From Dromaius novaehollandiae (Eukaryota; Chordata; Aves; Casuariiformes; Dromaiidae), in contig NC_088117.1 in assembly GCF_036370855.1 (NCBI RefSeq), forward strand, positions 3,596,001 through 3,660,000: a stretch of DNA of 64,000 nucleotides, given 5' to 3'. Below are positions 3,001 through 38,300 of this stretch, piece by piece. The position numbers and the translations under genes are program-made. The notes under the pieces were generated by a model. It had not been told where the DNA came from, ran no database searches, and saw only the letters and a list, made by a program, of their open reading frames with translations. The stretch's first letter is position 1; every line of letters begins with the position of its first letter.

Positions 3001-5384
3001 CCGGCACACGCTGTCCCCAGACGCGCCGGGGAGATGCCGTTGCCTTGGGCTTTGCACTGGCCGATGCTCGCAAATGCTTTCGGGGGCTTTAGCCACACAA
3101 GGAGCCCGGCTGCCCTGCACGAAGGCACAGGGGAAGCCGGGGGGAAAATCCCCTCGTTCCTGACCGGTGTCCTGCTTCCGGCAGGACCGTTGAGTGCAAG
3201 CCAAGCTCTCCATCGCAGGCTGTGGTGGCTGGGCACCCCGGGGAGCTGCGGGTGGGTTAGTTGTTCAAAGCCGCCCCAGAAGGTAGGTTTGCAGGTGTTC
3301 AACGCCTTCTCGGCAAAGCGTGCCGTGCTACGGAAGTTATCCAGCCTGGGAGGGCGGCAAGGCGGGAGGCGTTCACGTCGGGGGCTCGCGGGCAACACGG
3401 TTGGGTGCAGAAGGTGCTGGTTCACGGCCATCACCCAAAAGCAGTGCTGGGAAAGGGACATCCCGGTCACCCCGGATGAGCCCATCTCCCGCCTTGCTCT
3501 CATGGGATCCCCAGGCAGGACTGCAGCGAAATCCATGCCGAGCCGCAACAGTTGACCTTCACGATGGGTTGGTAGCAACCAAACAGCAACCTGCTGCAGT
3601 TCTTCTTCCCAAATCCTTTCTCTCGGGAAAAGCCCTGTGTATCCCGCTGTGGCTTTAAACACAGCATTCCGCGCGGCTCCCTGGAGATTTAATCTGCGAC
3701 CTTTTGCTGATACAAGGACATCCCTGCTCCGTTCCTGGCTTCATCCCACCAGGCTGCCTCTGACCTTGGGCAAGTCACTTATTCCCATACTCGGTTGCCT
3801 CGTGGCGGTTAATATTTACTGTACCTGTCTCGGAGAGGAGCGGAGCAGAAGTCACTGTTTGCGGAGAACGTGGAAGGCGTTCGATGGGGCTCACTCGCTC
3901 GCAGGAGAAAATCTTCCCGTGTTAGCTGTTAGCAGGGTAATGTGGCAGCAATGCTACCAGAACTGGTGGAATTGGACCACGATAAGATAAGACTTGATCC
4001 CAAGGTGAGTAGAAAAATAGGTCCCAAACATATGGCAGAAATACATTTTTTTCCCACCTCGCGGACTTCTGACACTAAGTAATAATACCACACCGAGCAA
4101 ATATTCGATGAGCTGCCCCGTTTGGGAGGGTTTGGGGGGCAGAGCTGGACTCTGACGTACACACGTGGGCTGGAGGTGGGATCCCAGGGTGGTGCTGCCC
4201 TGAAACACCCATGGACCCCCCGCGTTTGCCTTGCTGCAGCTCGCGCCGGCTTTGAACATCTAAGAAACTAATGGTGTTTATTCCATCCTCCTGTTTGGCT
4301 ATTTTGGCCAGTTCCCATCATTCAAAAAAATGAGTTGTGCTTCCTAACTCATGAGATCGCTAATAAAAATTAATGGGGTCTGAATCCCGTAGGGCTGCTC
4401 TCTGCGTCAGAGCCCCTCGTGCTCCCGCTTTTCAAGTCTTTCTGCACCGGTGGCTGCGATTCGCAAAGCCAGGGCTTTCCCTGGAAACCAAGCGAGGTTT
4501 CTCCGGAGACGGCTGCCTCGAGGAGGCGAGCATCATGGCTCAGCCGGCTGAAGGGGAAGCGGGAAATGCGGCCGGCTGCCGATCCGTGGTGGCATCCCGA
4601 AGCACCAGCGATACCGTGCGCCGGGACGCTTGGAGCCGGAGCAGCTCCGGGAAGCGCAGCCGGCTGCAAACTCCCCCGAAGGGCCGCGGAGGGAGGTGCC
4701 CGCGGGCGGCGCAACCCGCCGGCCAAAATTGCTAGTTGGGTTTTGTTTCTGCACCCGCCGAGCTCATTTCCCGGTGCTTGTGCAATCGCACATGCTTCCG
4801 TGTCCCTTCCCCGGTGTCTATGTGCCAACGGGCCGAAAACACCTGGGGAGGGAAAACAGCCGTGCTGGGCCGCTGCCCCGCGAGGCCGCGTCTGGGCGAG
4901 GTTTACCCGCGCGGGGTGTAGTCGCCCGGGTGCAATCCCGCGGCGAGTTGGGTCTCTCCTACCCCCCTCCCGAAATAGCGGTGCTTTCAAGATAAGCTCC
5001 CAGGAGCGGACAGCGCTGGCCGCTCGCTCTGGGTTGGTCCCGGTTGGCGTGCTGGGGCGGTTTCGGTAATGCCGTATCTACAGGAAACGAAAAGCAGCGG
5101 CCTGTTTAATTAATCTAACTGGGATTTGGTTTCAGTGCGATAGCTGTAAATCACCGCTCTACTGCAATAACCTTCTGCGTAGAAATTCGCAGCTAGCTGC
5201 TCAGCTTTTTGGGCCGTAAATAATGAAAAAAAGTACGTAGACTCGCGCCCCATGGGGAGACCCTACAGCAAACACGGGGGGGACCTTGCAATAAGCACAG
5301 AGGCGAGGGCGGAGACGCAGGGCGCGGAGGGGAAGGAGGCTGGGAACGCTGTTTTCAACGAGCGACAGGGATTCCCGGCGGGGG
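1..5384. other. Upstream region, no gene identified
   Basis: I see no exon with convincing homology or splice structure here. The open frames are GC-rich chance frames without recognisable domains, including one of 305 codons at 2638-3555 (+). Two stretches are rich in CpG (about 2340-3600 and 4370-5060), and the second runs toward the glutamine synthetase promoter. They could be distal regulatory DNA or an alternative upstream exon, but nothing in the sequence proves either. A short AT-rich block at about 5090-5230 separates the upstream CpG-rich stretch from the promoter. Confidence 0.6.
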
Positions 5385-5436
5385 GAGGGCGGGGCCCGGC
5401 CCCGGGGCGGGGCGCTCCGCCGCGGGCGCCTATAAA
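5385..5436 (+). promoter_or_regulatory. Core promoter of the glutamine synthetase gene (GC boxes plus TATA box)
   Basis: Two Sp1-type GC boxes (GGGCGGGGC cores at about 5387-5395 and 5405-5413) are followed by a good TATA box, TATAAA at 5431-5436. The start of transcription should lie about 30 bases downstream, near 5460. A donor-like GTGAGC at 5484 then ends a short untranslated first exon. Canonical vertebrate GLUL promoters also have a TATA box. The exact start site is inferred, not seen. Confidence 0.75.
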
Positions 5437-5459
5437 GGGCGGCGGGAGCAGCCGGGCGC

Positions 5460-5739
5460 GTCCGGGAGCAGCGCGCAGGGCCGGTGAGCGCCAGGGCCGC
5501 GGGTTCGCGTCCCGCGGGGGGACGGTCGGGGCCGCGGGTTCGCGCCCCGTCTCAGGTTGGGGGGGCTGGGGGCGGGCTCCCCCCGTGCTGGGCTCGGCTC
5601 CGTGTACAGCACCCGGCCCGGGGGTGGCTGCTTGCTTTTAAGATCCCCCGGGGGAGGAAGCGCCCCAAAGGGTGCTGGGGGGGTGCAAGGGGGCCGAGCT
5701 CACCGGGTGCCCCTGTCCCGCTCTCGCAGGGCCGTCGCC
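5460..5739 (+). other. 5' untranslated region with a 246-bp leader intron
   Basis: The inferred untranslated exon runs from about 5460 to 5483. The intron is 5484-5729, with donor GTGAGC and an acceptor ending CTCTCGCAG. Ten untranslated bases then precede the start codon. The ATG at 5740 has a good Kozak context (GCCGTCGCC before it). The protein-level start matches the usual length of the family. Confidence 0.65.
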
Positions 5740-5905
5740 ATGTCGGTGTCGCACAGCTCCAAGCTCAACAAGCTGGTGAGGGAGCAGTACATGAAGCTGC
5801 CCCAGGGCGACCTGGTCCAGGTCACCTACGTCTGGATCGACGGCAGCGGCGAGGGCGTGCGCTGCAAGAGCCGGACCCTTGAGAAGGAGCCCAAGAGCAT
5901 CGAAG
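5740..5905 (+). CDS. Glutamine synthetase coding exon 1 (residues 1-55)
   Basis: It begins at the ATG and ends after the first base of codon 56, followed by donor GTAATG. It encodes the N-terminal helix and the first strands of the beta-grasp domain, including the YMKLPQG and VWIDGSGE motifs typical of eukaryotic glutamine synthetase. Confidence 0.95.
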
Positions 5906-8900
5906 GTAATGGCGGGCCTCTTCTCGCGGCACGCGCCGGAGGGCCCCGAGCATCGCCAGGGCGCGTGGGGCTGGCGCCTGTTCTCCCCGGGCTTTTGCAG
6001 CCTCGGTGATGCCAGCGCCAACCGTCTCGCCAGGTTGCACGGAGCGGTGTGGTAAACACCCGGCCTCCGGCGGGCTGGGGTTTGCTTAATCCCTAATCTC
6101 TGTCACTAGGGCTGGGTGGGACAGGCAAGACCAGATCCTGCCACGCAGCCCGCAGCGGTGCCAGCACCTGGCATGGATGGGCTCGGTGGCGGGGGGCGGG
6201 GGGGGGCGTTTGCGCCGTGCTGCTCTCAACGCCGCTTTCCCCCGGTCCGGCCTCGCAGACGTGCCCGAGTGGAATTTCGACGGCTCCAGCACGGCCCAGG
6301 CGGAGGGCTCCAACAGCGACATGTTCCTCGTGCCCGTCCGCATGTTCAGAGACCCCTTCTGCCTCGACCCCAACAAGCTGGTGTTGTGCGAGGTGCTGAA
6401 GTACAACCGGAAACCCGCAGGTGAGCTGGTGTACCGCGCTCCCCGCACAGCCCGTGCACCGCCCGGCTGCCGCGGGCGCCGGTGCCGCTGCTCAGCATCC
6501 CTCTGCCCAAGGGGCCGATTGCCTGGGGTCACCTTTGCCAAGGAACCGCTCAGCCGGGAAGCTGCTGCGTGGTTGGCCTGAGGCTCCAAAATTGAGATGC
6601 CGTTTGAGGCTGTTATTTGCAGGAACCTGCTCTAGCAGGTGCTGCGAAGGGCGAGGAGAAACAGTCGGACGCGGCTAGCGTTCTGCGTCAGCCCCGTCGC
6701 TAGCGGAGCGCCAGCGAGCGCCCTGGCTCGTGATCCTCAACGCCCAGCGCCTCGGGGCTGCGCGGGTGCGACGGCAGCCCCGCACGAGGCCCTCGGGAAG
6801 CGGCTGGGTCAGCGAGCCCACGCTTAGGCTTTTGTGTACGGGAAACTGCCGATAAAGCGTTCAAAACACTCGGGCGTAGAAACGGAAGGTCGTTTTAGTG
6901 CATCGTGCTTGCGGCTGCTCCCCTTGTCAGTGGGCAGCCGCTGAGAAGGAACGAGAAGCCGAGAGGGGCCGGAGCAGCGCGGTCTTGCTGTAGGATATCC
7001 TCCGGTTAAGGTGTCCGAAGTGCGCTGGAGCGTTGTCCGTATCGCCGAGGGCAGAAGTCTGCAGGCTGGGCATCGATCCCTGTCCGTCCCGTAAAGCCCC
7101 GGACCAAGGAGGGGAGCTGGGTAGGGGAAGGAGAGCTGGGACGTCGGCTGGGTGGCTCCTGGCAGCGTTACTCACCCGAGGTGTCTTCGGGCTGGCTTGG
7201 AAGCGAGGCGGGGGCCGCCGGCCAGCTGGGCCGGTGGGTGGAGTGGGGATGTTTGTGCGTCAACACGCAGCATCTTCCTGGAAGAGTGGGGGTCTGCGGG
7301 TAGCGATGGTGAAAGGCGGATTTGGTTCCTCTTAGCGCAGCAAGACGTGTTTTGGCCGTGGGGGAAGTGCTTTGGTGCTCTTGCTCTAGCCTCAGCTGAC
7401 CCAGAATGATTTTTTTCTTATTTAAAGAAAGTCCGTCATCTTGGGATCGTGTTGTTTAGTGACGTGGTATGAGCAGAGCTCAGCCCCGAGGCTCTGCCTA
7501 ATCCACGCCTGGCCAGGGCACACGGTGCTGCCGCCACTTCCCGGAGTTGGGCCCTGTTTACATTAAGGGGTGTGTGGCCTTGGGAAACTCTTTCCTTTTC
7601 TCCCGTTAATGCAAGATCTTTAGTCCCAGATCCTGGAGTTTGCCATAGCTGCTCTGGGGGCTTGTATTGTCACTTAAAGGTAGAATTTGCAGCCAAGGGG
7701 CTGCTTTTCCCCGTGACACAGGGAAAGCAATTTTTCAGCCTTGCCTCTCCCTTTAGCCAGCTGTTTTGGTCTGAACCCTCACTCCCCTTTGGCACTTTCT
7801 CCAGTTTCTGGGTCGCTCTCTGATACCCACATCTGCTTGGTGAAGCCCTGGATGCTCTGAGCCCTCCTGCTGTGAAAGGGCAAGCCAGGACGAGCTGGTT
7901 TTCTGCAAGCTGAATTGGATGCTAGCCAGAAACCTGGAGCAGTAGAAAGATGTGTCTAAGGAGAAGCAAGCTGAGGATGGTACGGAGGGTTGTAAGATGG
8001 GAGCAGAGCAGGGATGGGAGATGCACAGTTGCTGCTGTCAGATCTGCTAGGTTCCTCGGAGGATGGGGCTGGAGTATGTCTCCTAATCTCTCGGTGTGTC
8101 AGAGGAGGTAGAGGACGCTTGTGGACTGGAGGCAGCGGTTGGAGGACTGGAGGCAGCGGTTTTGGCAGTAGCCTAATTAAAACCTTCTTGGCCTGTAGCC
8201 TGATGCTGTGGTGACGGAGCTGCTCTGCCTCAGCCCTGCAGCTGCGTAGATGGATGTTTGGGGATCCCTTATGAACGCCTCAGTGGAAAGGTCTGACACC
8301 TCTCAGTCCCTAGATCTCACCAGACTTTGCTACAGTGCCTGTTTCCATGGATAAAGGAAACTGGTGAGCAGAAAACATCCCAGGAGGGGGGAATCCACTT
8401 CAGTTTCTTTAAGGCCCTCTGCTTCTGCGGGAAACACTGCAGGGGTTGAGGGCAGACCTCTGTGACTGGGATTAAGTGGAGCGTGGAGGATGTCTGCTTG
8501 CCGCAGGTGGGTCTAACGGGGGTTTCTCTCCCCTCAGAGACCAACTTGAGACACACGTGTAAGAAAGTCATGGACTTGGCTAAGGACAGCCACCCCTGGT
8601 TTGGGATGGAGCAGGAGTACACTCTGCTGGGCATCAACGGCCACCCCTACGGCTGGCCCGACAACGGCTTCCCAGGCCCCCAGGGTGAGTGCCCCTCTCC
8701 CCTTCCCCGCAGCGGGCTTCCTCGTGTTTGCCCCATGCCCACGGTCCTGCTCGCCGTGACGCTCCTGGGGGTCAGTGTCTCGGCGTCCGACCGAGCTCCC
8801 GCTCGGCTTGGGGCGAGGTGGCTCTCCCAGCCGGCTGCATCCGCGTGGTGCTGGGACCCATCAGCGCCGGGACCCTGCAGACCCGCACACCAGCGGGGAG

Positions 8901-11900
8901 AAGCCACGTGCAAAGACCTTCCAAGCCTGGACCCAGGTGCTCGGCTGGGCGAGCTCGGCTCTTCCCGCTGCCCCGGCGGCAGGCGTCCTGCTCGCTCCGT
9001 TGTCAGCCCTGCTCCCGGGCAGCTTCGGCGCAGCTTTGCCGCTGCGGCAGCCTGCGGGCAGCCGGCTCGGGGCCGGGGGGAGGTTAGGAGGTGTTTGCCG
9101 AAGGCGCTTTGTGCCCCACGGCTCACGTGAGCCGGCCGGCAGCACCGCTCCTGCCGGACCCCGATTACACAAACAGCTCGGCTGCAGGACTTGTTTGTCG
9201 AGGGCTGGAGAACTCGACCGGAAAAATCTCTCCGTGGCTGTTCATTAAAAGAGCGGCCGTGCGAAGGCCGGGTGCTGCAGCACATTTTTCCCTCCTGAAG
9301 CAGCAGAGGAGTCTGAGCACCCCGGCTGCCTCCTGGGAAAGGGCTGGGGATTTCCCAACCGAACTTAATCAGCCTTTTGTGCAGACAGACTGTTTTCAAC
9401 ATCTCCTTCCCCTAGGCGGGGAGAAGAGCTTCATTTAACTTGCTTGAATGAGGAAGAGCCATCTAAAGTAACAGCAAGCTGAATTTTCTAGGCATGAACA
9501 ATGTTAGCTGTTGTCAGAACAATCTCCTAAGCCTTAAGTGCTCAGAGGGTCAATGAAGTGCTGCAGGGCAGGCCCGGCTTTCCTTATCTCCCAGTCACCT
9601 CCCAGTTTATGCATTGCAAGTCCTATTTAACTGCCTAGATAAGGCTGAGGCTGCACAGCTGCAACCCCCTGGATTTCTGACACCGCTGGCCCTCGGAGTA
9701 GGGGCCAGTGGCCAGATGCACCATGGAGGCCAGCGTGGTTTAATTTCCTATAGATCTGCTGCAGATAATCCCACCGCTCACAGATATTGGAACCAGTGAT
9801 CACACTGGAGTGCTGCTGTTGCTCCCAAAAGCTTTACGTGGGTGTTAACTTCTGTTTCTTTTTCAGGCCCCTATTACTGCGGGGTTGGAGCCGACAAGGT
9901 GTACGGGCGTGATATCGTGGAGTCCCACTACAAGGCATGTCTCTACGCGGGGGTGAAGATCTGTGGCACCAATGCGGAGGTGATGCCCTCCCAGGTACGT
10001 GCGAGCGGCTCTCCGTGGCCCGTTGGGGAGCTGCTGGTTTCGGCCAGAAGCCAACGGGAGAGGCCACGTGTGTCTTGGCGCCTGGCAAGGCCGGGAGTGT
10101 GGGCTTGGAGATGCTGACCACGAGGATCTTGCAGATCTGCATCTCTCAGATCTCTGCTCTCCGTACCCTGTTGCCGAAAGCAATTAGAGCATTTGACCCT
10201 CTTTCCAGGAGAAAAGGGAGTTTTGGGCCCTGGGTATCAGTGGCCATCAGCAAACTGTGTAGAGGCAGCGAACGCTTGCTTCCAGAGGAGAGGAGCCCTG
10301 TGTTTCTGTGGCGCCTGGTCTCCAGAGGCAGACTGAGGCCAGGCTGATTTGTAACTTCCAGCTCCTCTGGGATGCTGGATCTAGTGGTTCCCCACGTCAG
10401 CAGAGTTTTTTGTCTAGATGAGAGCAGTTGTGCTGCTAAAGCGAGGATGTGTGGGTTGATTTTCTTCTCGCTTGCCCCAGACCAAGGGTTTGCACAGGGG
10501 TGGGTTAATCCTGGCTGTGCACCGGGCTGCAAAACTGCAGCAAGCTCTTTGCACGACGGCGGCCTGAGCTCTGGCAGCCCATGAAGAGTTGGGTGCTTTT
10601 CTCTGGTTTCCTTCAAATTCCTGAGTAGCCAAGGCAGGGCAAGTTAAAGCCCCTGCCGAAGGCTGACTGGAGATGGGAGGCCAGCAGAAGAAAGCTGTTT
10701 CGTGTCCCCAGGAGCAGGGGACCAGGAGGGGGGCAGTGCAAGCCAGGCTGAGCTGCAGGAGTAAGCGGAGCCGTGGGGGTCTGGGTCCTGCTCCTCTACC
10801 AGGGGAGCTGGGAGGCTCGTGTGGGGCCCAGCCTTGGGGAGAGCTTGGAGGGGACGTCGCTGGGCTTGATTTATTTAGGAGTTTGCCAAAGGAGTCCCTG
10901 ATTGCATTATGCAGCTGGCCAGACTGCCCGGCTGCGGCTTGGCCCTGCAGCCTGCGAATCGCTGACTCTCCCTCCGCTGATCTGGCCGTGATAAGCGGAG
11001 GCCTTATCTGCGGCGTAGCTGAGGCAGGACTTTTAACTACCCTGCTATTTGCCCGGACTTTTTCAGGGTCCTTTTTTGCTGCTTGCTGCATCCTGTGCTT
11101 AGTCTCCGCTGGGCCATGCCAGCAGATACCGTAAATGTCTCACTAGTCCCTACTTAGTCATCGTGGGTGGCGCAACCCTGTCTCTGGATGGGGGGGAAGC
11201 AGCTGAGTAAAGGCCTAGCAAGGACCTCGTTAGTCCTGTGCCCTGCTATTGCCCTGCGGGTCCTGTAATCCTGTTAGCTGGCAGCTCGAGCATTGGCTTC
11301 ATTGATAGAAACCCTCTGATTTTTCTGTAATTAGTCATAACCACTTTATTCCCATTTATCTTGTGCCAGAGCTGTCCTGTCACTTAACTAGATCCTCTCC
11401 ATCCCCCTTGTTCATTCCTAGGGGATAATCTGTAAAGCTGAGCCAGTTCCTGCCTTTCTAGTTCTTGCTGCGGTAGGTGATGGCTGGGGAGGCTCAAACC
11501 TGCCCGTTACCATCAGCAGATCCTCTCTCCCCTCCCAGTGGGAATTTCAGGTGGGCCCGTGCGAAGGCATCGAGATGGGGGATCACCTCTGGATGGCTCG
11601 CTTCATCCTGCACCGGGTCTGTGAGGACTTTGGGGTTGTGGCCACTCTGGATCCCAAACCGATGACCGGCAACTGGAACGGAGCTGGGTGTCACACCAAC
11701 TACAGCACGGAAGAAATGAGGAGAGAAGGTGGCCTCAAGTGAGTTCCGGGGGGGGATTTCTGGGGGCTGAAGGCTGTGCCCAGCAGGCTCGGGGTGAGCG
11801 ACCCGAGCTGGTGGGGAAGCTCAGCTCGTGGCTGCTTGGTGGCCTTGGTGGCCCTGCCTTAGGGCTTGTGTCTCCATGTCTGGATCGCTGCACCAGGCAG

Positions 11901-12410
11901 GACAGCCCCACCTCAGTCATGAGCATTTTATTTTAGAAGCAATCTGTCCTGTGCAGTGCCCAAGGCAAGCGCTGAGCCTGTCTCCTGGGCTGTGCTCCCC
12001 CCAGGAGCAGGGGTGACAGTCTCCCAGAAGAGGGATCTGCTCTTTAAGCAGATCCGGTGGCAACCCTGACCCCGTTCTCCTCTCTCAGGCACATCGAAGC
12101 TGCTATTGAGAAGCTGAGCAAGCGACACGACTACCACATCTGCGTGTATGACCCCCGGGGGGGCAGAGACAACTCCAGGAGGCTCACCGGCCACCACGAG
12201 ACGTCCAACATCTTCGAGTTCTCCGCCGGCGTGGCCAACCGAGGCGCCAGCATCCGCATCCCCCGGCAGGTCGGCCAGGACGGCTACGGGTACTTCGAGG
12301 ATCGGCGGCCCGCGGCCAACTGCGACCCGTACGCCGTCACGGAGGCCATCATGAGGACGACGGTGCTCAACGAGACGGGGGTGGAGACCAAAGACTATGC
12401 TGACAACTGA
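5740..12410 (+). CDS. Glutamine synthetase (GLUL-family paralogue), 374 residues, six coding exons
   Basis: The enzyme (EC 6.3.1.2) makes glutamine from glutamate, ammonia and ATP, as a decamer. Coding exons are 5740-5905, 6259-6420, 8538-8684, 9867-9994, 11539-11738 and 12089-12410. All junctions are GT-AG, phases match, and the total is 1125 nt including TGA. The beta-grasp domain spans about residues 25-105 and the catalytic domain about 112-374. In human numbering, the active-site residues E134, E136, E196, E203, H253, R299, E305, R319, R324, E338 and R340 are all present, as are the motifs WNFDGSS (60-66) and NGAGCHTN (248-255). The family's usual length is 373. The N-terminus ([16 protein letters not shown]) and C-terminus (ETKDYADN) differ from the highly conserved bird and mammal GLUL. 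This suggests a second GLUL-type gene, like those I recall from amphibians and some sauropsids, so no symbol is assigned. It looks fully functional, with no frameshift or stop. The cellular site (cytosol or mitochondria) cannot be settled from sequence. Confidence 0.96.
5906..6258 (+). other. Glutamine synthetase intron between coding exons 1 and 2
   Basis: A 353-bp GC-rich intron with donor GTAATG and an acceptor ending CCTCGCAG. A G-rich run near 6189-6208 is the only notable element. Confidence 0.9.
6259..6420 (+). CDS. Glutamine synthetase coding exon 2 (residues 56-109)
   Basis: Bounded by acceptor CTCGCAG and donor GTGAGC, phase 1 at both ends. It encodes the signature WNFDGSS and the conserved stretches EGSNSDM, MFRDPF and [10 protein letters not shown], which complete the beta-grasp domain. 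Each active site lies between neighbouring subunits, and this domain supplies part of it. Confidence 0.95.
6421..8537 (+). other. Glutamine synthetase intron between coding exons 2 and 3
   Basis: A 2,117-bp intron, GC-rich and CpG-rich at its 5' end and CpG-poor after about 7400. It contains a 21-bp tandem duplication at 8123-8163. No embedded gene or RNA is recognised. Confidence 0.9.
8123..8163. repeat. 21-bp tandem duplication in a glutamine synthetase intron
   Basis: The word GGACTGGAGGCAGCGGTT starts at 8123 and again at 8144, a period of 21 bases. It is probably a small replication-slippage duplication with no evident function. Confidence 0.8.
8538..8684 (+). CDS. Glutamine synthetase coding exon 3 (residues 110-158)
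   Basis: Bounded by acceptor CCCCTCAG and donor GTGAGT. It carries the metal-binding glutamates E134 and E136 in [12 protein letters not shown], followed by the GHPYGWP and FPGPQG stretches of the catalytic domain. Confidence 0.95.
8685..9866 (+). other. Glutamine synthetase intron between coding exons 3 and 4
   Basis: A 1,182-bp intron. Its first part (8700-9250) is CpG-rich, and the rest (9420-9840) is AT-richer. No gene, RNA or transposon is recognised. Confidence 0.9.
9867..9994 (+). CDS. Glutamine synthetase coding exon 4 (residues 159-201)
   Basis: It begins after a TTTTTCAG acceptor and ends in phase 0 before GTACGT. It encodes [15 protein letters not shown] and the metal-binding E196 in [10 protein letters not shown]. 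Confidence 0.95.
9995..11538 (+). other. Glutamine synthetase intron between coding exons 4 and 5
   Basis: A 1,544-bp intron. The part at about 11230-11420 is AT-rich with homeodomain-type TAATTA words and GATA-type TTATCT words in a GC-rich setting, so it could hold an intronic enhancer. No gene is recognised. Confidence 0.9.
11539..11738 (+). CDS. Glutamine synthetase coding exon 5 (residues 202-267)
   Basis: It carries E203 in [10 protein letters not shown] and H253 in [11 protein letters not shown], which bind metal and substrate. It ends within codon 268 (phase 2), at donor GTGAGT. Confidence 0.95.
11739..12088 (+). other. Glutamine synthetase intron between coding exons 5 and 6
   Basis: A 350-bp intron from donor GTGAGT to acceptor TCTCTCAG. 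Nothing else is recognised. Confidence 0.9.
12089..12410 (+). CDS. Glutamine synthetase coding exon 6 (residues 268-374 and stop)
   Basis: It encodes the ATP- and glutamate-binding end of the catalytic domain: R299 and E305 around RRLTGHHE, R319 and R324 in [10 protein letters not shown], and E338/R340 in GYFEDRRP. The tail after LNETG (VETKDYADN) differs from the tail of canonical GLUL. TGA is at 12408-12410. Third codon positions are strongly G/C. Confidence 0.96.
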
Positions 12411-12800
12411 GGCCGTGGGGTGGGTGGAGGTTTTTAAGTCTCCACTAGCTTCTCACGGGGGATTTGTGCCCGTGCGATATCCTCAGCATTAAGTTCAGAC
12501 TCGTTAGGAACCTCGCTTCTGGTTTTGTGAAATGTCAGCGTAGAAATATATATTTTATAGCAAGAGGGAGGGGCCAGCCTGTTTTCTCAACCACTTCTGG
12601 TTCCTGGTTTTAGATCAGACGTGGGGAGTTTTTTAAAACTTGGATTTAACTTTTTTTTTTCCGGTGGACTTTATACTGTGATGCACAGAGGTCCCTACGT
12701 GGAAGCTGCAGCTGCTGCCGTTTGAACCTGGGGAGGGTGGGTGCTTTTTTCCATATCTGTGTTGCAAGGAAATGGTAATAAAAAGTTGTCCCAGCTGCGT
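12411..12800 (+). other. 3' UTR of the glutamine synthetase gene
   Basis: Roughly 390 bases, with T-rich runs near 12650. It ends near the AATAAA signal at 12777-12782. Canonical GLUL messages usually have a longer, multi-signal 3' UTR, so further sites downstream cannot be excluded. Confidence 0.7.
12777..12782 (+). terminator. Polyadenylation signal AATAAA
   Basis: A perfect AATAAA lies 367 bases after the stop codon, with a GT-containing stretch (AAAGTTGTC) just downstream. It is the first such signal after the coding region. Confidence 0.7.
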
Positions 12801-25514: not shown

Positions 25515-25910
25515 ACTGAGCCCTTCCCGCAGAGCCTGGCCCCACAGCAAGGCCCTTCCCGCAGAGCCCAGCCCCACAGTGTGGCCCCCACAGCACAGCC
25601 CTGTCCTTGCGCTGTGTCTGGCCCCATAGTGTAGCCCTTCCCTTAGAGCGCGGCCCCACGGTGCAGCCCTGCCCTCAGAGCTTGGCCCCATAGCGTGGCC
25701 CCACAGCACAGCCCTGCCCTCAGAGCTTTGCCCCACAGTGTGGCCCCACAGCACAGCCCTTTCCTCAGAGCCTGGCCCCACAGAGCAGCCCTGGCCTCAG
25801 AGCCCGGCCCCATAGCATGACCCACAGCACAGCCCTTTCCTCACAGCCCGGCCCCATAGTGAAGCCCTTCCCTCAGGGTCCAGCCCCACGGCGCGGCCCT
25901 GCCCTCACAC
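25515..25910. repeat. Minisatellite upstream of ARRDC1 (31-bp and about 47-bp units)
   Basis: Roughly ten diverged copies of a unit of the form AGCCCTTCCCTCAGAG followed by CNTGGCCCCACAG. Some units carry an extra 16-base TGTGGCCCCACAGCAC segment, so the period alternates. It ends about 290 bases before the ARRDC1 start codon. The 141-residue minus-strand frame through it is a repeat translation. Confidence 0.9.
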
Positions 25911-26201: not shown

Positions 26202-26319
26202 ATGGGGAAGGTGCAGCTCTTCGAGATCCGCCTGGGCGAGAGCCGGGTCATCTACAGCCCCGGAGAGCCGCTGGCCGGCACCGTCACCGTGCGCCTCTCC
26301 GGCTCGCTGCAGTACCGAG
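26202..26319 (+). CDS. ARRDC1: ARRDC1 coding exon 1 (residues 1-39)
   Basis: It begins at the strong-Kozak ATG and ends after the first base of codon 40, at donor GTGAGA. It encodes MGKVQLFEIRL, then VIYSPGEPLAGTV, the first strands of the arrestin N domain. Confidence 0.96.
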
Positions 26320-29300
26320 GTGAGACCGCCGCCTCCCCCCCCCCTCCCCGGGCTGTCCCGGGCGGCCGCGCCCCCCACACCGGCCCCAGCCCCGCGGGGG
26401 GCTCCGGGGTGGCGCCCGGGCCCGGCAGCCCTTCGCCACGCGAGCCCCGGCCTGCCGCCGCCTCGCCCCGAGCGAGAGGAGCCCGGCAGCTCCCCGCCGC
26501 CGCCCCCGTCCCCTCCGCGCCGCGGGCTGCGCCTGGTCCCGGCGCCCCGCAGCCGCCGGCGCGGGGGTTGCGCGCATCGCTCTGCCTCTGCCGCAGCCCG
26601 CGAGGTCCTGGCCGGGGAGAGACGCGGGGTGATGTGAACAACCTCCCCGATTATTTCTTCCTCTGCCTCCTGTGACTTTTTTTTTTCCCCTTCTGCTTCC
26701 CCGCAAAGCCGGGCAGCACGGACTTGTTTCACGGACACGTCCAAACCCGGCCCGCGCCTCGCTGGGACGCAGGGTCAGGCGTGGCGGCGAAGGGAGGCGA
26801 CGGGCCGGGTGGCCGAGAGCGGAGCAGCGCGGTGCAGCCTTGTCCCCTGCCGCACCGCCGCGCGCCGCCCCCGGCAGCCCCGTGGCAAGGGGCCCTCGCG
26901 CGCCCCGGTCTGCCACGATGCCCGGACCCGTGTTTCATAAATACCCGCTTACGGTTCCTGGGCCGCGGCTGCCTAAAGCTGTGGCGGGGCCTCCCCAGGC
27001 TGCGGCCGGCGGTTTGGGGACGGGAGCTGCGAGGAGGCCCGGAGGAAGTGCGCAGCGCGGGGTGCGAGCTGCCCGCTGCCCCCGGTGCCGCGGGAGCTCC
27101 CGCGCAGGGACGCCTGGCCGGCCGCAAGCACAGCCCGCTGCCATCCGTCGCCAGCAACAGTCGCGTGATGCCTTCGGCGAACTTGGGTGTTGTGAGTTGT
27201 GAAGCTCCCGGTGAAGGGGGGATCTGTAGCCTGAGCGCGTGGCCCCGTCGGTGTCGGGGGGAGAAGGTCGGTAGCGCGAGCAGCTCCAAGCAGGCGTAAA
27301 ACCTCATCGCGCCTCCCTGCCGCTGCCGTTTCAGCTGCGTCCGTGGCGCAGGCGGTATCTGGAGCATGTGGGCTGCTGCGGCTCGACGGGAGATGTGGGC
27401 CCCCTCGGTGGCTGTCGCAGTCCGTCAGGAGACGGCAGGGTGGATGGACGGGGATGGACGAGGGGGAGGGCAGCTGCTCGTTTAAGATCCTCCAAACCGG
27501 GAAGGGGCGGATGATCGAGCGGGCCACGGAGGTTACGGGCTCCAAATGCCCTCTGCTCCGCCGTGACCTCGCAGATGAGCCAGCCAGCTACGGGGTCGCT
27601 CCCGCGTTGCTGGCTCCCCCACCTAGAGAGGGCCTTAGCGCTCACGGAGTAGTTTCGTGCTCAGAGCCGTGGAAACGCGGACTTATTCCTTGCTCTCGCT
27701 GAGGTCGTCTCGCTTGCTTGTCTTGTATGAACGCTTCGTGCTCTGTAACGAACTGCTGGGGGGGCAGGGAAAGGCCAAAGAACTGAAAACGCAAAGGCTC
27801 TTGAACGCAGACGTCAGCCTGGATGATGGTGCCTGGGCCAGCCGGGGCTGGGATGTTCTTGCTTTCGCGAACACTTCTCCCCATTTTCTGCAATAGCTTT
27901 TTGGAAGCTTCCTCAGGAAAAAAAACCCATCTAGGACAAGTACAGACTTGTAGGCTGTTCAACTCCTGTCACAGCAAAACAGTTGCACATCCGGAGTGTT
28001 TATCTGCTCGGAGACTACTTAGAGCAATATTTTTTTTTTCCAGTGAAGAAACTCTTAGACAAAGTGCTTGCTGACTGCCATCCTCCCTTTTCTTGGCCTG
28101 TCCCCTCCACCCTTGTCCCTGAAGGGGCCGCTTGGGCGAAATGGGAGTGTTTGGCCTTGCAAGGCTCGGCTGTGCTAGTCCCGGGTGCTGCCAGCTGGCC
28201 GGGCTAGCTGTGGTTACACCTTGCTGGTGCCCCTGGGGACCCTGCGGGCTCTCGGGTTCCCTGCGTGCCAGGTTTTCCTCTTCTGCCTCCCGGTGTGCTG
28301 CAGCTCGTTGTTGCGGGGGAGGGAGGAGGGTGTCTTTGTCCGGACCCCCCCGCCCTTCGTTCTGGAGGTGTTCCTTATTGCTCTGACTCTGGGAAACTTT
28401 AGGGTCTGGCGTAAGAGGTGGTTCTCAAGCCAGGAGAGGTTTTGCCATTGGATCTTTGTGTATAACGCTAATACAGTGATTTTGGTAACAAGCCGGGGCG
28501 GTTGAGCAGGGCTTTAGGAAAGCTGGCCGAGACCCTGGCGCTGGCAGCAGCATCTAGCCAGCTCTGAGGCGGGCTGTGCGCGGTCGTTCCTTCTCCCTCT
28601 GAGCAGAGGTGATGTGAGCTGCTGTTTCGGGCCGAGGTCCCTGCAAATCGACTTTGCCAGCTGGGACAGAAGGGGGCTTAGGAGGAAGTTCACGGATGGT
28701 GCTAGGTGCTAGCTTGCCATAACTGGTGTCTAACTCTGCCCAAATGAGCAGTGGGCTTCAAGATGTGGTGACAAGGTCTGTGAAACACAAGGTGGCTCTT
28801 TGCCGTGTGTCCTTCCTGCGGCTTCGTGTCTTACGGTCCTTGGTGTCCCGCCAACCCTAAGCAGCGAGGCCGGGGACCTCTCTCAGGTGGCACCTTCTCC
28901 TTTTGTCCAGCTAAGGAAATGTCCCACCTTCAGGAAAAGAGGAGGAAGCTCATGTATCTGCTGCAGCAACCTTCTTAGTGTGACAGCAGGCAACTACCTG
29001 CTGCACAGAGATCTTAAGACTAGGCTCCATGGAGGGCCTAGCACTAGTCAGCCGTGTTCAGCTTCACAGGTCCAGCGACGAGGGATCGGACACCCTTTAT
29101 CATGCTGTAGCTTTGTGCTGGGGTGCGGGGAGAGGTGGGTGGAGGCCTCACAACCGTGTCAGCTTGTGCTGTGAAGTATACTGCTACACCTTCTGCGACC
29201 AGCTGTAACTTTTCAGACTAATAAATATCTCCAAGGAAAAGACCTGAAATACCTGCCCTGTACAGGTCTGGCCCATGGCACCAAAGTGTTTCCCCAACTG

Positions 29301-32300
29301 GACCAGTCTGGTGTAGCTGCTCGTCTCACTATTGTGGTTCCCGAGATCCAAAATCTCGCACAAATGCAAATAAGTCTGTAGATGATTACTTCAGAGGGTA
29401 ACGTGTTTTATGGCTCTCAGAAGCTGCACCTATCAAAAGGGGAACAATAGAGGCAAACAAGGTTCATTCTGTATTGCTAAACATGCTAGAAATCTCGGGC
29501 TGTAGGAAAACATGATTGGAGACACGCCTCTTGGGATCATAAGTACCCTTATCCACACTAGCTTCCTTGCCGGCCCTGCCAGCTAGCCGTAATGGCTGTT
29601 CGGTAACCCGTAGTCCTCGGCTGACCACGCAGCAGCGTCAGGAATGATGACTCGCCTTTCGCAAACCGTACGCACCGTCCCGAGGCACGTGGGAGGAGGC
29701 ACGCTGCTCCGTGCCAGGAGGAAGGTCCTCTGCAAACTTCGAGGCCTCGGGGGAGAGCGCTGATGGAAACGCGGAGCTCCCAATTGTTGTGCCTGACTTA
29801 CCGGGTAAATCATCAAACACGTGTGTACAAAGAATAATTAATCTAACAGGAAGCGGGCGCTGGGCCAGCTGGGTATGGAGTTAATTTGGGGGGAGGGAGG
29901 AGAAGTTGAGAACATGGAAGCCGGCCTCGGTCACTGGCAGGAGCGTGCTACAACGGCGTGCTGCAACAAAGGCTCGCGCCGCTCCCCTCTGCCGGAGCAC
30001 TTTCCTCTCGACTCGAAAGCTTGCAGGGGCAATGCAGATTATTTCAGTCCTGCTGCCTCCCGTTCAGCTAGGCTCCTTGTGGGCAGACGTGTAATGTTAA
30101 AATAACAGCCCTCTCCCCCAGGTCACTACGAGTAAAGAAGCTGTGAGTGCTTTCCGAAGCAGATTTCAGCCCTGTGTTATTCTCTGCTCTGTTATTTAGC
30201 TGTCCAGGTTTATGTGGTGATGACTAGACTTTAAAATCGGTCTCTTGAACTGCAAAGCTCCAAATGGAAGTACCTGTGGCTGTTCGTGCTATAGAAGTAT
30301 CCAGGTACATAATTCCCATTTCTTCCAACCAGATAGCCTGTGCCTCACTGTTTCCTTCCCTAAATGTAGTAAATATTCTCATTTCTTGTATGGAGAGCTG
30401 AGAAAGCTGGTGGTGGAGGGTTGAAAGCAGCTCACTTGAATCCTGCGTGATGTGTCCACACCGGAAGGTCAGTTCTGCTTCCCTGGGATGGCAGTAGGAA
30501 GAAGTTTGGATTTGGTTAAGGTGGTTTTGCTGTGCATGTAACCTGTACCCTTCCTAGGGGAAAGAGGAAACACCTGTGGACTCTGTCCGTTAGCCAGGAT
30601 CCTTCATACAATTTGACTCCTGAAACAGAGGAAAATCTGTTCCAGCAGGAAGGTTGTGGCTTGGTCTGCTCAGTAGGGTGATGTTTAAAGGATGGGTTCA
30701 ATCTCTGGTTAGTAGTCTGAAGCGTGCTCTCTCCTGAGACTGAAGTTTGTCCTCTGTGAGGGTGGATTTTAAATTCCTGTGCTTGACAGCATAGGTCACC
30801 TCGTCTCATCGCATCTATAAATCATCCGGACAGCGGGGATCCCGTGGCTTGTCTCTGCTTCAGGATTCAGTCTGCGACGGAGCATGACTGCTTGAAGTGC
30901 AGTCCTGGGCACGGCCGCGGTGGGTTTGGTAGGCAGGGAAGGGTCCACAAGCTGCAGCTGTCCCCGGCGATGCTGGCGGGCCCGGTGCGGTCCTCGAGCG
31001 GGCTGGCATCCCTTAGCTGCGGCGGGCGCCGGGATGAGGCGCAGGAATGCTCATCTGTCGTTCCGCATCGCTCTGGCGGGCTGGATGGCTCCTGCTGTAG
31101 CGGCAGTGGATTAACTTTCTTTTCTCGTTGTCTGGAGCGAGACGGCGATGAGCCGTGTGGCCAAGTCTGTCTGAGACTGTGGAACAAAAGAGGGATTTCT
31201 GCCATCCTGGCCAGCTTGTTGCTAGAGCTCAGGCTCCCCTGGAGTCGATGAGTAATCGCAAGGTGGTTTGGTGTCTCCCGTCTGCCTCCCTTTGCTCTCC
31301 CCACCCCGCGCACACCTCTCGGGCTCGCCCGGAGAGCCGCGTTTGCTGCTGCCCTTGGTGAGGAGACGTGCCGTGGCCTTCCCTCCCGCGTAACAAAACA
31401 GGCAACAAGCGGAGCGGAGTTGTGCTTGTCTGATTCGCTTCCAAGTGTGACAGCCGGGGTGTGATTGCTTATTCTCTCCCCGGAGCAGCGTATTGCTGGC
31501 AGGGATGTGGCTTGTCTTTCCAAACCGGAGTCAGGTAGGCTGTAGGGAGGCTCCCTCGCTGGGAGGAATAAGTTTGTGTTTCTGCATCCATCTTTTTTGG
31601 TGGCCGCTCCCCATCCCTTCCATGGGCCCCACGTCGAGGCCTCAGAGAGGGGAGCAGCCGGGGAGGGCAACGGCTCGAGCCGGCTTTGCTGCCGAGGGAG
31701 GTGAGCGTGGCAGCACGGACACTCCTGCTCTGCCCATAGCCACCTTGGGGAACGCCTTGCTGAAGGTCCTTCTTGGATGAGAGGGGGATGAGGTGGAAGT
31801 AAATATGCAGAAGTGACATAGCTGTCCCTTGATGTGTGACCCTGGCTAGAGGCTTTCACGGCCAGGGAGAGCAGAACGGACCTTCTGTAGACCTGACCTG
31901 CCCAAAAGCGCAGAAGAGGTGCTCTGCTGGGGACTGGGGCAAGTCTTTCCTCCTCCTTCTTGGAGTGGCTGCTCCTGAAACAGCCTGACAAGCACACCAG
32001 GAGCTTTATTATTATTGTTATTTTTTTAATTTCATGCCTCTTTTCTTGAGGGCTGATTACCGAGATGGCCAGCTCATAACCTAAAGGCTATACTGCTATG
32101 ACCTCTTAAGTCTGGCTGCAGGGATTGCTGTGGAAGTTAATTATCTCTTTGTGCCACTCTTAAAATCTCTGGTGTGGAAGTGCAAAGCGCTTGGGAGAGG
32201 AAGAAACGCACAAAGGACCCAGGCTGCTGCCACTCAGCGAACTTCTCTCCCGTGTACAGTTGTGCCCGCACGTGCTCTTATTCCCTATTTTGTTTCTAGG

Positions 32301-35300
32301 ATCTGAAGATGAAACGGTTTCAGACCGTAAAGATGTTCTGGTTTCTTTCTGCCTGTGAAGACTTTTAAGAAGCAACCCCATGTCCCCTGAACTCGCTTTG
32401 ATGGTGTGGCAGTGTCAAGAGTGAGCTGGGGTTTTTGCTGTGAATAAGCTTGTGAATAAAGGCTTTTCGCCAGAGCGCGCTTAGCCATGGCTGGGTACCG
32501 CTTTGTCTAGGATCAAATACGGCCTTTAGAAGGGTGGTCAGTCCCATGCGGTTGACTTGGATCGCTTGAGCAGATGTCCGCAGAGTACTGGGACCCTGAG
32601 ATGCCAGATGACTGCAGGGAGGATAGAGGCGTAGCCTGAGGTGAGGATAGACATTGCTTTTCACCTCTCTGCAAGATGAGACTGGAAAGCTGATACCAAT
32701 TTAGAACTACTTAGAGGTCTAGTCTAAAAACACCCCCGACCTTTGAGCTCTCAGTAACACCTTAGTCTTGGTTTTAAAATTGGAGCTTATCAGGTACCCA
32801 CAGCAAAAAGCATTCTGGTGAGTCTGTTTTCAAAAAGCATGAATCATTTCTGGAGCACCAGCACTCCTGTGTGTAACTTCCAGTCCTGTGTGCTCGTTTA
32901 TGGAGCCCTGTTCTCGGTCTGTCTGGCTCCAGCACCTCGTGCCGGAGGCGATGATACTGCCGTGGTTTGCTCTCCACCCCTCCCTTACGCCCCCCCCTTA
33001 ATCCCAAATGCTCCCCACGATAAGACATGAGTCAAAGTGGCTTGGAAGGCCGCACCTCCAAGGAGGAAATCTCAACACGTGGGCATCATTTAGTGCCTTC
33101 TCGATGGGGACTCTCAGCCTCGGACTGGATGTCGGGTCCAGGGGCCCAGCTCTCGGCCCTGAATACTACATTTTCTGTCTGCAGGTGTCCAGCCTGACTG
33201 GGGGGAGTGAAGATTACCTTATGAACTTGTACCGCTCCTGGCGTAGCAGGGATTTGTTATGTATCTGGTGCTCTGGTAATAACAAGAACATAAGTCGTCT
33301 TTCCAAACTGATGATCTTGCTATAAATAGAGAATCCAGCTGCTTGCATTGAATGGCATCAAAGAAAATCATAGGAACAGCTCTTATGCAGAACAAACCGG
33401 ATTCTGGCTGTTTTCTCCGAAGATACTGGGGCCGGGGGAGGGGGTATTTCCTGACAACTGAGACGTGCGAAAGCAAGGCGTGAGAGCTCAGCGCGGTGTG
33501 TGAAATCTTCAGCCGCGAGCACGTCACGCAAGGCGGCTGGGATCTCCCGTCGCGCCGTCCCACGCTTTGCTGCCTCCCTGCCCCAACAGGAGACCTGGCT
33601 ACGCAGGTACACGGCTGTAATGAAGACTCATTAAATGCAAGGTTGCTTTATTGCCTATAAATAAGGCCGTTCAGGAAAGGCCACTTACAACCGCCTCTGC
33701 TAAGAGGAGGTGAGCTGGCTCCAGGCTCGTGCTTGGGAGCAGCAGCAGTGCCGCATCGTCTGGAGGTGTCTCAGCAGATCCTCGCTGCTGACTCGTGGGT
33801 CTGCCCGGAGGAGTGCGGCGGGGCGGACGGGTCTGAACGCAGAGTTTTGTGCAGTTGCTTGTTGCAATGCTGTTGTAGTCTTTTCTTGTACCTGAGCTCC
33901 AACCTCTTGCATCAAAACAGCTGTTTCCAGGATGCCTAAAAAGTTGTGAACTTTCTTTTTTAGTCCTCCTCACCAGCAGCTTGGAGATGGAGGCCCGGTC
34001 GGGATGCCTGGTTATGGCAATATTGGCCGTGCTGAATCATTTCAGTCCAAAGTGTGTGTGTTGGCGGGGAGTGGAGGGGGTTCAGCCTGTTAGAGACCTT
34101 TCTTTGGCCAACTGAGTGTTGAGCTGACTTTTTGCCAGGTGACTACTCATCTCCCCAAGCACAGGGAGAGTCCTGGAGAGCTGAGGCCCAGGAGCGTCCC
34201 TTGAGCTCCAGGAGGGGCCGGAGGAACATTACCTCCCCTCCTGAGTGCCTGTGCTGCGCCTGTAGGACCGATAGTTGCTGAGAAGACCTGGTGACCTGTG
34301 TCTGCCAGTGTTTTGGGTGACAGTGAGGATGTGCCGAAATGAGCATCGACCAACAGGAGCTGCTGTAGCCTCAGCTCCTGGAAAGGTGTACCTGAGAGTC
34401 CCGAAAGGTGTACCTGAGAGTCCCGAAAGGAAACGCGTCCGATTCGGTCCTGTGGCAGAGTCTGGCCCGGAGGAGCTGTTGTGCTCTGGCATTACAGCGA
34501 GCCTGTTAAGCACGAATTTCCAGACCTCTTTGAAGCCTTTATTTAGAAATAGCCTGAAAAGGGAGTAGGCCCTGGTGAATCAACCTCTTTGTGGTAAGCA
34601 GAGAAACCTGATCAGTTGGCCGTTTCTCTGCCTGCAGTGGCTTTGCGCCGAGCTTCCAGGGGGGACGCTCCCGCCACCGGAGATGCAGGTGAGAGAGTTC
34701 GTTAAAGCGGCCGCGGGGTGTGGGAAGAACAGAGCGGAGCTGGCGGTGGTCACAGACCAGCGTGTGTTCCCAGGACATCAGAGCTCTGCTGCCCGGCCGG
34801 TTATCGCGGATCTCTTGTGCTGGGTGAATAGCCGGCTTGTTCTGCCGGGTAGATGGGATAAGGTGTCTCGCTTTGTGCTCGCAGGGGAGGAAACAACGAA
34901 GAGGTAATGAGTTTAAAGGGGCAGTTTGTTACAGCATGGACCTGACTGGTCTTAAAGCACCTCACAGAGGTCTCCTGGGGCCTTTGGTGTGGTAGGATGA
35001 GGTGGGTTTTCTTGTTCAGTTCTTCCTTTTTTAGACAGGGAAGTTAAGTACACGGGAATATCTTAACTGCTCTGGCTTAAAGTAGTGCTAAGTGCCGGGT
35101 GGAAACCTATTTCTTTCTGGGCAAGCTATAAAAAAAAGTGGTTCCTCTCTCCTGTTTTAGCACTGCTCAGCTAGGCCACAGCTGCCCTGCCCCAGTCTGA
35201 CCGAGGTGTTGAGTGCTGGCAGCTCCTGGTGCCGGTCGGCATTCCCGGGAGCCGGGCGAGTGCTGGCTCCGCGCCGCTCGTCTGGCTGCACGTGGCGCCC

Positions 35301-38300
35301 GTGGGACTTGCGTTGCCCTCCCACGGGGCTCCTGGGGAGCCCAAACCCTGAGGCTTGAGGTGCTCTGACCGTTTGTGTACGTGCAGCCTTGTGCTGCTTT
35401 GAAGAGCACAGGTTGCTTAAATGCAGGTTACCCACAGCTCGCAGAAGCCAGTTTGAGTTGCCCAAGTCCCCTGAGAAGTGATGACTGTAAATGAAGATGT
35501 ACAGGGGGTCACAGGTATACCTTGCCCAGACCTTCCTGAGTTCCTAAACACGAGGTGTCTCTGCTCCTGGCCGTATTCCCAGCATTCGCCGCTCCGCGGT
35601 GCCGGGGCTGGAAGGCGATGTGCAGCCCAGCAGAGGCGGATGTCACATACTGCGTCCGCTCCTGGCAGCGGGGCGAGGGTGAGACGAGGAGCTGGGCCAT
35701 ACCAAGCTATATGGAGCTTTACGCAGAAAGGAGGGTGAGGAGGAGTGAGCCCAGGCACTGGCAGTGGACACGGTGCTTCCTTAAACGAGGTATCGTGATA
35801 CTGGTATCTCGCAGCGCGTTTGCCTGGGGCCTCCTGCTGCCGAACAGACCTTGGTCGTGGTGTTTGCGGGGATCGGCTGGGTAATGAGCTGAGCAGCTCT
35901 GACCTGGCGTGTGATTCCTGCTGTAAATCCCAGGAAAGCCCTACCTGGAGCTCTGTCATGTCGTGATGGAAACACAGCCTGCTCTCTTGTGGATGGGGTA
36001 GCAGAAGGGACCCTCAAGCACAGCTCTAGAAGGAGAGCAGGCATGTTAGTCTCAAAAGAGGTCAGACTTTACCTCTCTGAATTTCTGGCCAGATAAGTAG
36101 AAAGGAAGATTTCTTGAGACTGGAAGTTGGCATCGCGCATCAGAGCGGAGAAGTGCCTGGAGTGACTCCGCTATCCCCTCCAGCCTTCTGCTCATCTGCA
36201 GCTTCTGTGTCTCTCTCCCGACAGTCAGTGCTGGGTATGGGGAGAGGAGGCTGCGAATCCTGGCAGCGCAGCTGAGGTGGGTGGGTGGCAGGGAGGTTTT
36301 AACAGTGAGCTGTGAGATCTGTCTCTGAAAGCCGAATACCTAACTTCCTGCAGTGCCTCCTGTACTCCCGTCTGATCCGACTGTTCCCCGTGTTCAGGGG
36401 CATCTGCACGTGTCGTCCTGGTTCGGAAGGAAGAGACGTGTCCCTTAGGACGCGGCGGATGGTGCCCTGTCGCTCTGTGCATGAGGCCTCGAGGGCTAGG
36501 ATGGTGGGCTCCCATCCCGTGCGCTACGGGAGGCATTGCCTGCGGCCCACGCATCTGCTGGGCCATGCTGTGTTTGGGATGGGGCACGAGGTTGGGCTTC
36601 CAAAATTGGTCCCAGGTACTGCTTTCCTCCTTCCCCGCTTCCTCCTAAGTTGCGATCTAGGAATACTGCCTGTCCCGAATCCAGCTGGGCTGTTCTTGCC
36701 TGTGAGTATGTTGGTTGCAGGCCTTGCGCCTGTGCGTGCAGCAGGAGGGCTGGGGTAGGTGCGCGGTAAGGGGGGAGCTACAGACCCACGTGCGCAGCCT
36801 CTGCGCTGCCCGGGTGTTAGGGTACAATCGCCCCTGCAGGCCCTTGAGCCACAGACACCCGTTCCTCCCACCCCCCATCCCAGTCTCTTTGGGTGACGCA
36901 GCAGTGGGGGCTACATCTGTCTGCAGCTTAAGAATAAAAAACTTGCTTTTTTTGCAAGAGGTGGTTTTTGGGAAAGAGGGTGCTGGGGGAGCCCTTTCTG
37001 GAGGGTGTCTGGTGAGCAGCGAGGTGGCTGTGCCAGGGCAGCGGCGCGGGGCTCCGGGCTGCCGGAGCCTCTGCTGGGCCCGGTGCGCGGCTGCTGCGGC
37101 ACGCTTCATGCCTGTTGCTTGTGTCTGTTGCTAAGGAACTGCGGTTGCCTTTGGCAGCAGGGTGTAAAGAGCCAAAGCACAAATTTTGTGATATGCTGTT
37201 GTCCCCCCTCCTGGCGTCAGCGTGGCCTTGTTCGCTCTTGAGTTTTCCTCCCCAGCCTGACATGTGCAAAGACAGACTTGTTAAACGTGATCAACCGGGG
37301 AGATTTTGTTCCAGATGTTCGAGATGACCCCCATCCTCCGAGGGCAGCCTGAGTGCTGATAAAACTCTGTGATGCTATAAATAAACCTGTCAGCTTTGTA
37401 CAGGAGAAAAGCCTTTGGTTTAAACAGAAGTTTGTTCTAAACAGGAGCCCAATGGTTCAGTTCTTCCCTTGGGATGTACATAGATTCCTGATTTTGGGGG
37501 AAGGGGTGGGAAATGCTGGTTTCCCTGTTGCTCTCCATTTGTGTGATGGAAGAAAATGCTTGCAGATGGGAGAGGATCAACCTGCCTGGGAGAGGACTTG
37601 GCCAAGTCGCTGTTCTGCTTCTGTGCAGGCACACAACCTGCCAAGTCTCTCTTCTGAGACTTCTGCATTTGCTGAAACAAGAACATCCATTTAGCATGGA
37701 GATCTTACCTAGAAAGCTGACTCCTTTATTTAGGATTGAGGAAACAGCAGTGTTGCAAGGAGCAGAAACGGTAAAATGATCATGACCTGTCTCCATGGCC
37801 AGGGCGATTCAAGACCACCCTAAGCACGGAGCACCTGCTGGCTCTGGTAAGCGGGACCGCGGAGGGCCCTGTCTTGCGTGTGTAGCCGCAAGAGCACATG
37901 TGCCGTCCTGGTCCCCTCCTGGGCATCCCGGGTGTGTTGGCCCTTCCAGCAAACAGCTCTTCTGCCCCTTCCTCATCTGAGCATCTGATGCAGTTCTTTC
38001 CTCAGCCAAAAAGATGGAGAGGACAGTGCTGTTGGTTTGTCCCCCACACCCATAACCCTTCAGAACTGGGTTTAGTGAGTACTTTAGATCTGTTTTCCAG
38101 TGCTCCTTTGCTGTACGTGGGCAACAGGAATTGTGTGCTGGCCACATCTTGTTCGTGGCAGCTCTGCCTTAACAGTTCTCCTGTGTTGGCTTGATAGCAG
38201 GCCAGTACAGCCCTGTTGCTACAGCCAAGAGGAACAGGCAAACCTGGCTCACAGGACTGGTCTTGCTGAGCTTGGGAATATAGGCCTGGCTCTGCTGCCT

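Follow-up and report, generated by a model that had tools for sequence, protein, structure and literature searches.

A second glutamine synthetase gene beside ARRDC1 in Dromaius novaehollandiae and its probable origin as an ohnolog of GLUL

What is a second glutamine synthetase gene doing beside ARRDC1 in a bird genome, where does it come from, and is its product still an enzyme? The question is raised by the window analysed here, a stretch of 64,000 nucleotides of the Dromaius novaehollandiae genome (contig C20, positions 3596001-3660000, in a genome of 1.468 Gb), which holds such a gene at window positions 5740-12410. In land vertebrates this enzyme is commonly regarded as the product of one gene, and bird studies of nitrogen disposal, retina and brain glia for the most part consider GLUL alone. 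A preliminary description of the locus had proposed an intact, old GLUL duplicate. In our reading, which we hold with considerable confidence, it is an intact protein-coding gene for a type II glutamine synthetase, a GLUL paralog and most likely an ohnolog from the vertebrate genome doublings (2R), kept beside ARRDC1, EHMT1 and CACNA1B and lost on the mammal line. Should bird tissues express a second active and ancient enzyme, experiments with antibodies, knockdown or isotopes may have confounded the products of two genes; the second bird gene also raises the question of why mammals could lose it.

The gene and its protein

The coding sequence spans exactly 5740-12410 on the plus strand, as previously described, and its six coding exons give a product of 374 residues with zero internal stops. 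Coding exon 1 (5740-5905) opens with the ATG at 5740 and ends in phase 1, followed by exons 2 (6259-6420), 3 (8538-8684), 4 (9867-9994), 5 (11539-11738), which carries a PF00120 match above the curated cut-off of that family, and 6 (12089-12410), which ends in the stop codon TGA. All of them lie on the plus strand, and all five introns between them run from GT to AG. A phmmer search against the glutamine synthetases of the PDB matched residues 1-371 of 374 with an E-value of 7e-213, which is full-length homology to the eukaryotic type II enzymes of the GLUL family.

The protein is 76-77% identical to the solved structures. It shares 281/371 residues with each of the chains 8dnu and 2uu7, which we take to be human and dog GLUL, respectively (the entries say only "glutamine synthetase"), and 284/371 (76.5%) with the GLUL of its own genome, and both its N- and C-termini are unlike those of GLUL. 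The reported divergence of the termini and of internal positions was thus recovered, but the accompanying statement that bird and mammal GLUL are nearly invariant did not hold, as the genome's own GLUL and the human protein share only 331/371 residues.

The catalytic residues had been described as kept. At 23 of 24 active-site positions, taken to represent the metal, glutamate and ATP binding of a type II glutamine synthetase, the protein equals human GLUL, and the sole mismatch, K333G, is a glycine also in the fly enzyme. In the comparison with the own GLUL gene, dN was 0.165 and dS 1.81 by the NG86 method (dN/dS of about 0.09), and 0.161 and 1.29 by LWL85 (dN/dS 0.12); these ratios are only rough because dS is near saturation, yet they point to purifying selection.

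The 22 sites at which the window protein is altered while fly and all GLUL rows agree could raise the suspicion of a copy that is decaying or has lost catalysis, or of a protein turned structural in the manner of lengsin (LGSN). However, the frame and the splice sites are intact, dN/dS is low, the active site is retained at all but one of the checked positions, and the lengsin-like gene of this genome is a separate and highly divergent one, which makes such a fate highly improbable. A pseudogene was ruled out by the open frame together with both dN/dS estimates, the saturation of dS being kept in mind.

Both ends of the gene could be followed beyond the coding sequence. A TATA box (TATAAA, 5431-5436, plus strand), probably part of the promoter, lies within a CpG-rich stretch, with a GC content of 0.752 and a CpG observed/expected ratio of 0.85 over 5250-5749. 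Downstream of it, a probable non-coding leader exon occupies 5460-5483 on the plus strand, its 5′ end being placed from the TATA box; its donor GTGAGC starts at 5484, and the acceptor, ...CTCTCGCAG, ends at 5729. The leader region (5440-5483) holds no ATG, and no in-frame ATG was present between the stop at 5485 and position 5740, hence an upstream N-terminal extension was not found. A polyadenylation signal (AATAAA) follows at 12777-12782 on the plus strand. The TATAAA, the short leader without ATG and the AATAAA round off an ordinary vertebrate gene. When coding exon 1 and eight open reading frames of the window, nine stretches in all, were scanned against Pfam, the sole match was to PF25131 (E 0.013, below the curated cut-off).

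Age and origin of the gene pair

A six-frame search of the whole genome with the window protein returned 12 matches, six on C20, belonging to the window gene, and six on contig C8. The latter belong to the canonical GLUL (11241958-11246361, minus strand, 373 amino acids), which is the evident ortholog of mammalian GLUL and is identical at 367/373 positions to chicken GLUL. A separate canonical locus in the same genome, which the idea of an old duplicate called for, is therefore present. In the two genes the five coding introns are placed alike (residues 55, 109, 158, 201 and 267; phases 1, 1, 1, 0 and 2), which places the window gene in the vertebrate GLUL gene family, and a retrocopy was ruled out on this ground. 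Hence, the window gene has in common with canonical GLUL its fold family, its length, the positions and phases of its five coding introns and 23 of 24 active-site residues as in human, whereas it differs in having a separate locus, 76.5% identity, other termini, R14 in place of K14 and a higher GC content at third codon positions (GC3, 0.86 vs. 0.68). Of the two matches in a Pfam search of the genome, one is an exon of the gene described here, the other a highly divergent frame on contig C3 (near 29544379-29545323, minus strand), open over 398 amino acids in a single large exon, which we take to be lengsin, a member of the same glutamine synthetase superfamily but a separate gene.

In regard to the age of the pair, a tree was built from six sequences, rooted by one fly protein (7cpr, its fly identity having been checked) as the sole outgroup. 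It separates off the window protein before bird and mammal GLUL part from each other, with support of 89/91 under the mixture model and 95/96 under LG+G4, and thus leaves it outside the amniote GLUL clade. This placement had been set beforehand as the test on which the idea of an old duplicate could fail; the idea passed it with moderate support, the alternative being rejected at 0.05 under one of the two models. Among 363 gap-free columns, 11 unite the window protein with the fly against all GLUL rows, while 2 pair it with bird GLUL and 2 with mammal GLUL. Taken together, the protein comparison gives moderate support to a duplication that predates the bird/mammal split.

Alternatively, GLUL could have been duplicated later, in birds or sauropsids only, with the copy evolving fast and coming to lie beside ARRDC1 by chance. 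Forcing the window protein beside bird GLUL costs 5.6 log units under the mixture model, where the approximately unbiased (AU) test does not reject this arrangement at 0.05 (p 0.054), and 7.6 log units under LG+G4, where it is weakly rejected (p 0.035); furthermore, 22 sites carry changes private to the window protein against 11 private to GLUL (p 0.08), which hints at a faster rate. On the other hand, the site patterns stand at 11 to 2 to 2 for the older split, all five coding intron positions are retained, which excludes a retrocopy, and the position of the gene would be a considerable coincidence. Only about 0.06% of the genome lies as close to CACNA1B as the window gene does (the distance used being an upper bound), and GLUL itself adjoins CACNA1E. 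We therefore consider a late duplicate unlikely.

The neighbourhood carries the argument further. Along C20, and always on the plus strand, one finds in turn ZMYND19 (3.13-3.14 Mb), the window gene (3.60 Mb), ARRDC1 (3.62-3.66 Mb), the SET exons of EHMT1 (3.78-3.80 Mb), downstream of the window and between ARRDC1 and CACNA1B, and a gene for a Cav2 channel (4.08-4.13 Mb). This last gene is at most 471 kb downstream of the window gene, an upper bound since the query covered the channel only from an internal point onward. A second Cav2 gene lies on C8 (exons at 11.075-11.095 Mb), 147 kb from GLUL, and the same contig holds an LHX4-like gene at 605 kb and an ABL2-like gene at 942 kb from GLUL. The Cav2 genes were first located with a CACNA1A segment, which matched contig C30 at 97%, and then typed by their C-terminal exons against A, B and E segments. 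In the main C-terminal exons, the C20 gene fits B best (81-91%) and the C8 gene E (70-100%); the C30 gene fits A best in three of four main exons (85-96%), with A and B nearly equal in the fourth (77 and 78%), and one further exon per gene matches A, B and E about equally. By these fits the genes are CACNA1B on C20, CACNA1E on C8 and CACNA1A on C30.

In all three families tested, one member is found on C20 (CACNA1B, LHX3, ABL1) and its sister on C8 (CACNA1E, LHX4, ABL2). The window gene and GLUL lie in the same pair of paralogous blocks, as 2R ohnologs do, and are most simply regarded as ohnologs because these neighbours are split between the contigs likewise. The idea of an old GLUL duplicate is thereby borne out by the paralogy of the blocks as well as by the tree. 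We presume that the split mirrors the paralogy of human chromosomes 1q and 9q, for which no paralogon paper was among the literature matches listed (8 of 9). In such a scenario, the GLUL pair would have arisen with the genome doublings, the second copy would have stayed beside ARRDC1, EHMT1 and CACNA1B, and it would subsequently have been lost on the mammal line, human 9q34.3 presumably holding no glutamine synthetase gene. An early vertebrate segmental duplication would be indistinguishable from 2R by the gene phylogeny alone, but the division of three neighbour families (Cav2, LHX3/4 and ABL) over the same two contigs is what the duplication of a chromosome block predicts, and we regard a segmental origin as quite improbable.

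A probable ortholog of the window gene is already annotated in chicken as "glutamine synthetase-like" (LOC417253, ENSGALG00000008518, F1P0D2), likewise a second bird glutamine synthetase gene. LOC417253 is listed with a 2.02-fold increase in a table of RNA-seq data from liver (PMC7080769), F1P0D2 appears as "Glutamine synthetase (Fragment)" in a proteome table of the DF-1 fibroblast line with 0.00 in the score column (PMC4302370), and the Ensembl identifier appears, unnamed, in a table of differential expression (PMC10003191).

Several points weigh against an origin as an ohnolog that is still in use. The mixture model leaves the window gene acceptable as a sister of bird GLUL at 0.05, the only outgroup is a single fly protein on a long branch, and the vertebrate sequences of the tree come from birds and mammals. 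As the branch of the window protein is the longer one (22 vs. 11 changes), its outside position may partly reflect rate. The names of the neighbouring genes rest on human queries and identities, and the orthology of LOC417253 rests on its presumed place on chicken chromosome 17. Finally, the protein evidence for F1P0D2 in the table is weak because of its zero score, and the saturation of dS blurs the estimate of selection.

Predicted activity and the K14R difference

The window protein most likely makes glutamine from glutamate, ammonia and ATP, since 23 of the 24 active-site positions checked are kept. It would act as a cytosolic decamer and contribute to the glutamine supply together with GLUL; in uricotelic birds, part of this glutamine would go into purine and uric acid synthesis, for example in the liver.

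The regulation of the two enzymes could differ. According to a review, K11 and K14 of glutamine synthetase become acetylated at high glutamine, whereupon cereblon directs the enzyme to degradation (PMC7915753). The own GLUL has both lysines; of the two, the window protein keeps K11, with R14 at the other site. As R14 replaces one of these two acetyl-lysines, the window enzyme may be under weaker glutamine feedback, judging from its residues. A more far-reaching idea is that a bird ohnolog with K14 changed to R would keep making glutamine when it is plentiful, as a feedback-resistant nitrogen sink of uricotelic animals that mammals discarded; we put it forward as speculative and rather doubtful.

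The gene product could also be taken for the classical mitochondrial form of the enzyme in bird liver, given that its N-terminus has a net charge of +3 and a helical moment of 0.41, and that liver contains transcripts of the likely chicken counterpart. However, the N-terminus of the canonical GLUL is at least as suited (+3, moment 0.45), and neither the leader nor the interval 5485-5740 offers a start for an upstream extension. Moreover, the chicken liver mitochondrial enzyme sequenced by Campbell and Smith in 1992 is said to be the canonical GLUL, and a mitochondrial role of the window gene appears improbable.

Related genes and the surrounding sequence

The existence of a second bird glutamine synthetase gene is already known, and what is added here is the locus-level description, the evidence for an ohnolog and the K14R degron difference. 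A duplication of the glutamine synthetase gene in birds is mentioned in one sentence of the section on Neoaves of a 2023 paper in J Biol Chem, tied to uric acid (PMC10722388); the text covered neither places the copy at a locus nor analyses its sequence or derives it as an ohnolog. As a palaeognath, the bird studied here would extend the second gene beyond Neoaves. With that one remark and the chicken table entries, and with no functional study of the second bird gene among the literature matches listed, the earlier characterisation of the gene as poorly described seems fair. The same matches, which mostly leave subscription journals outside their scope, include none on the ohnolog origin, the locus or the degron difference of the second bird gene. 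Zebrafish has three genes, among which glulc is 70.2% identical to glula (PMC11546858); this divergent third fish paralog is a possible counterpart of the window gene.

As had been noted, the gene stands beside ARRDC1, which is the next gene identified downstream and on the same strand. The protein matches obtained by tblastn with human ARRDC1 extend over 26202-62604 (plus strand) in seven pieces starting at 26202, 45922, 60227, 60827, 61179, 61726 and 62182, and about 19.6 kb (26322-45921) separates the first two matched coding pieces. A GC-rich tandem array (25519-25889, 77-bp period, 4.8 copies) is found just ahead of the first matched exon. A search of the window and of eight 10-kb pieces on its flanks did not find ZMYND19, NRARP or the SET domain of EHMT1. 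Upstream, ZMYND19 (C20:3134383-3143346) is separated from the window gene by about 458 kb; as we take it to adjoin ARRDC1 in human, the interval has been rearranged or expanded in one lineage.

Elsewhere in the genome, six pairs of equal-score matches on contigs C33 and C35 are found at a near-constant offset of 13.68-13.70 Mb, with one C35 match (16068941) having no partner on C33. This suggests two large chromosomes that are collinear and almost identical, such as the Z and W of a ratite-like bird with little differentiation between them, or else a haplotype that the assembly contains twice.

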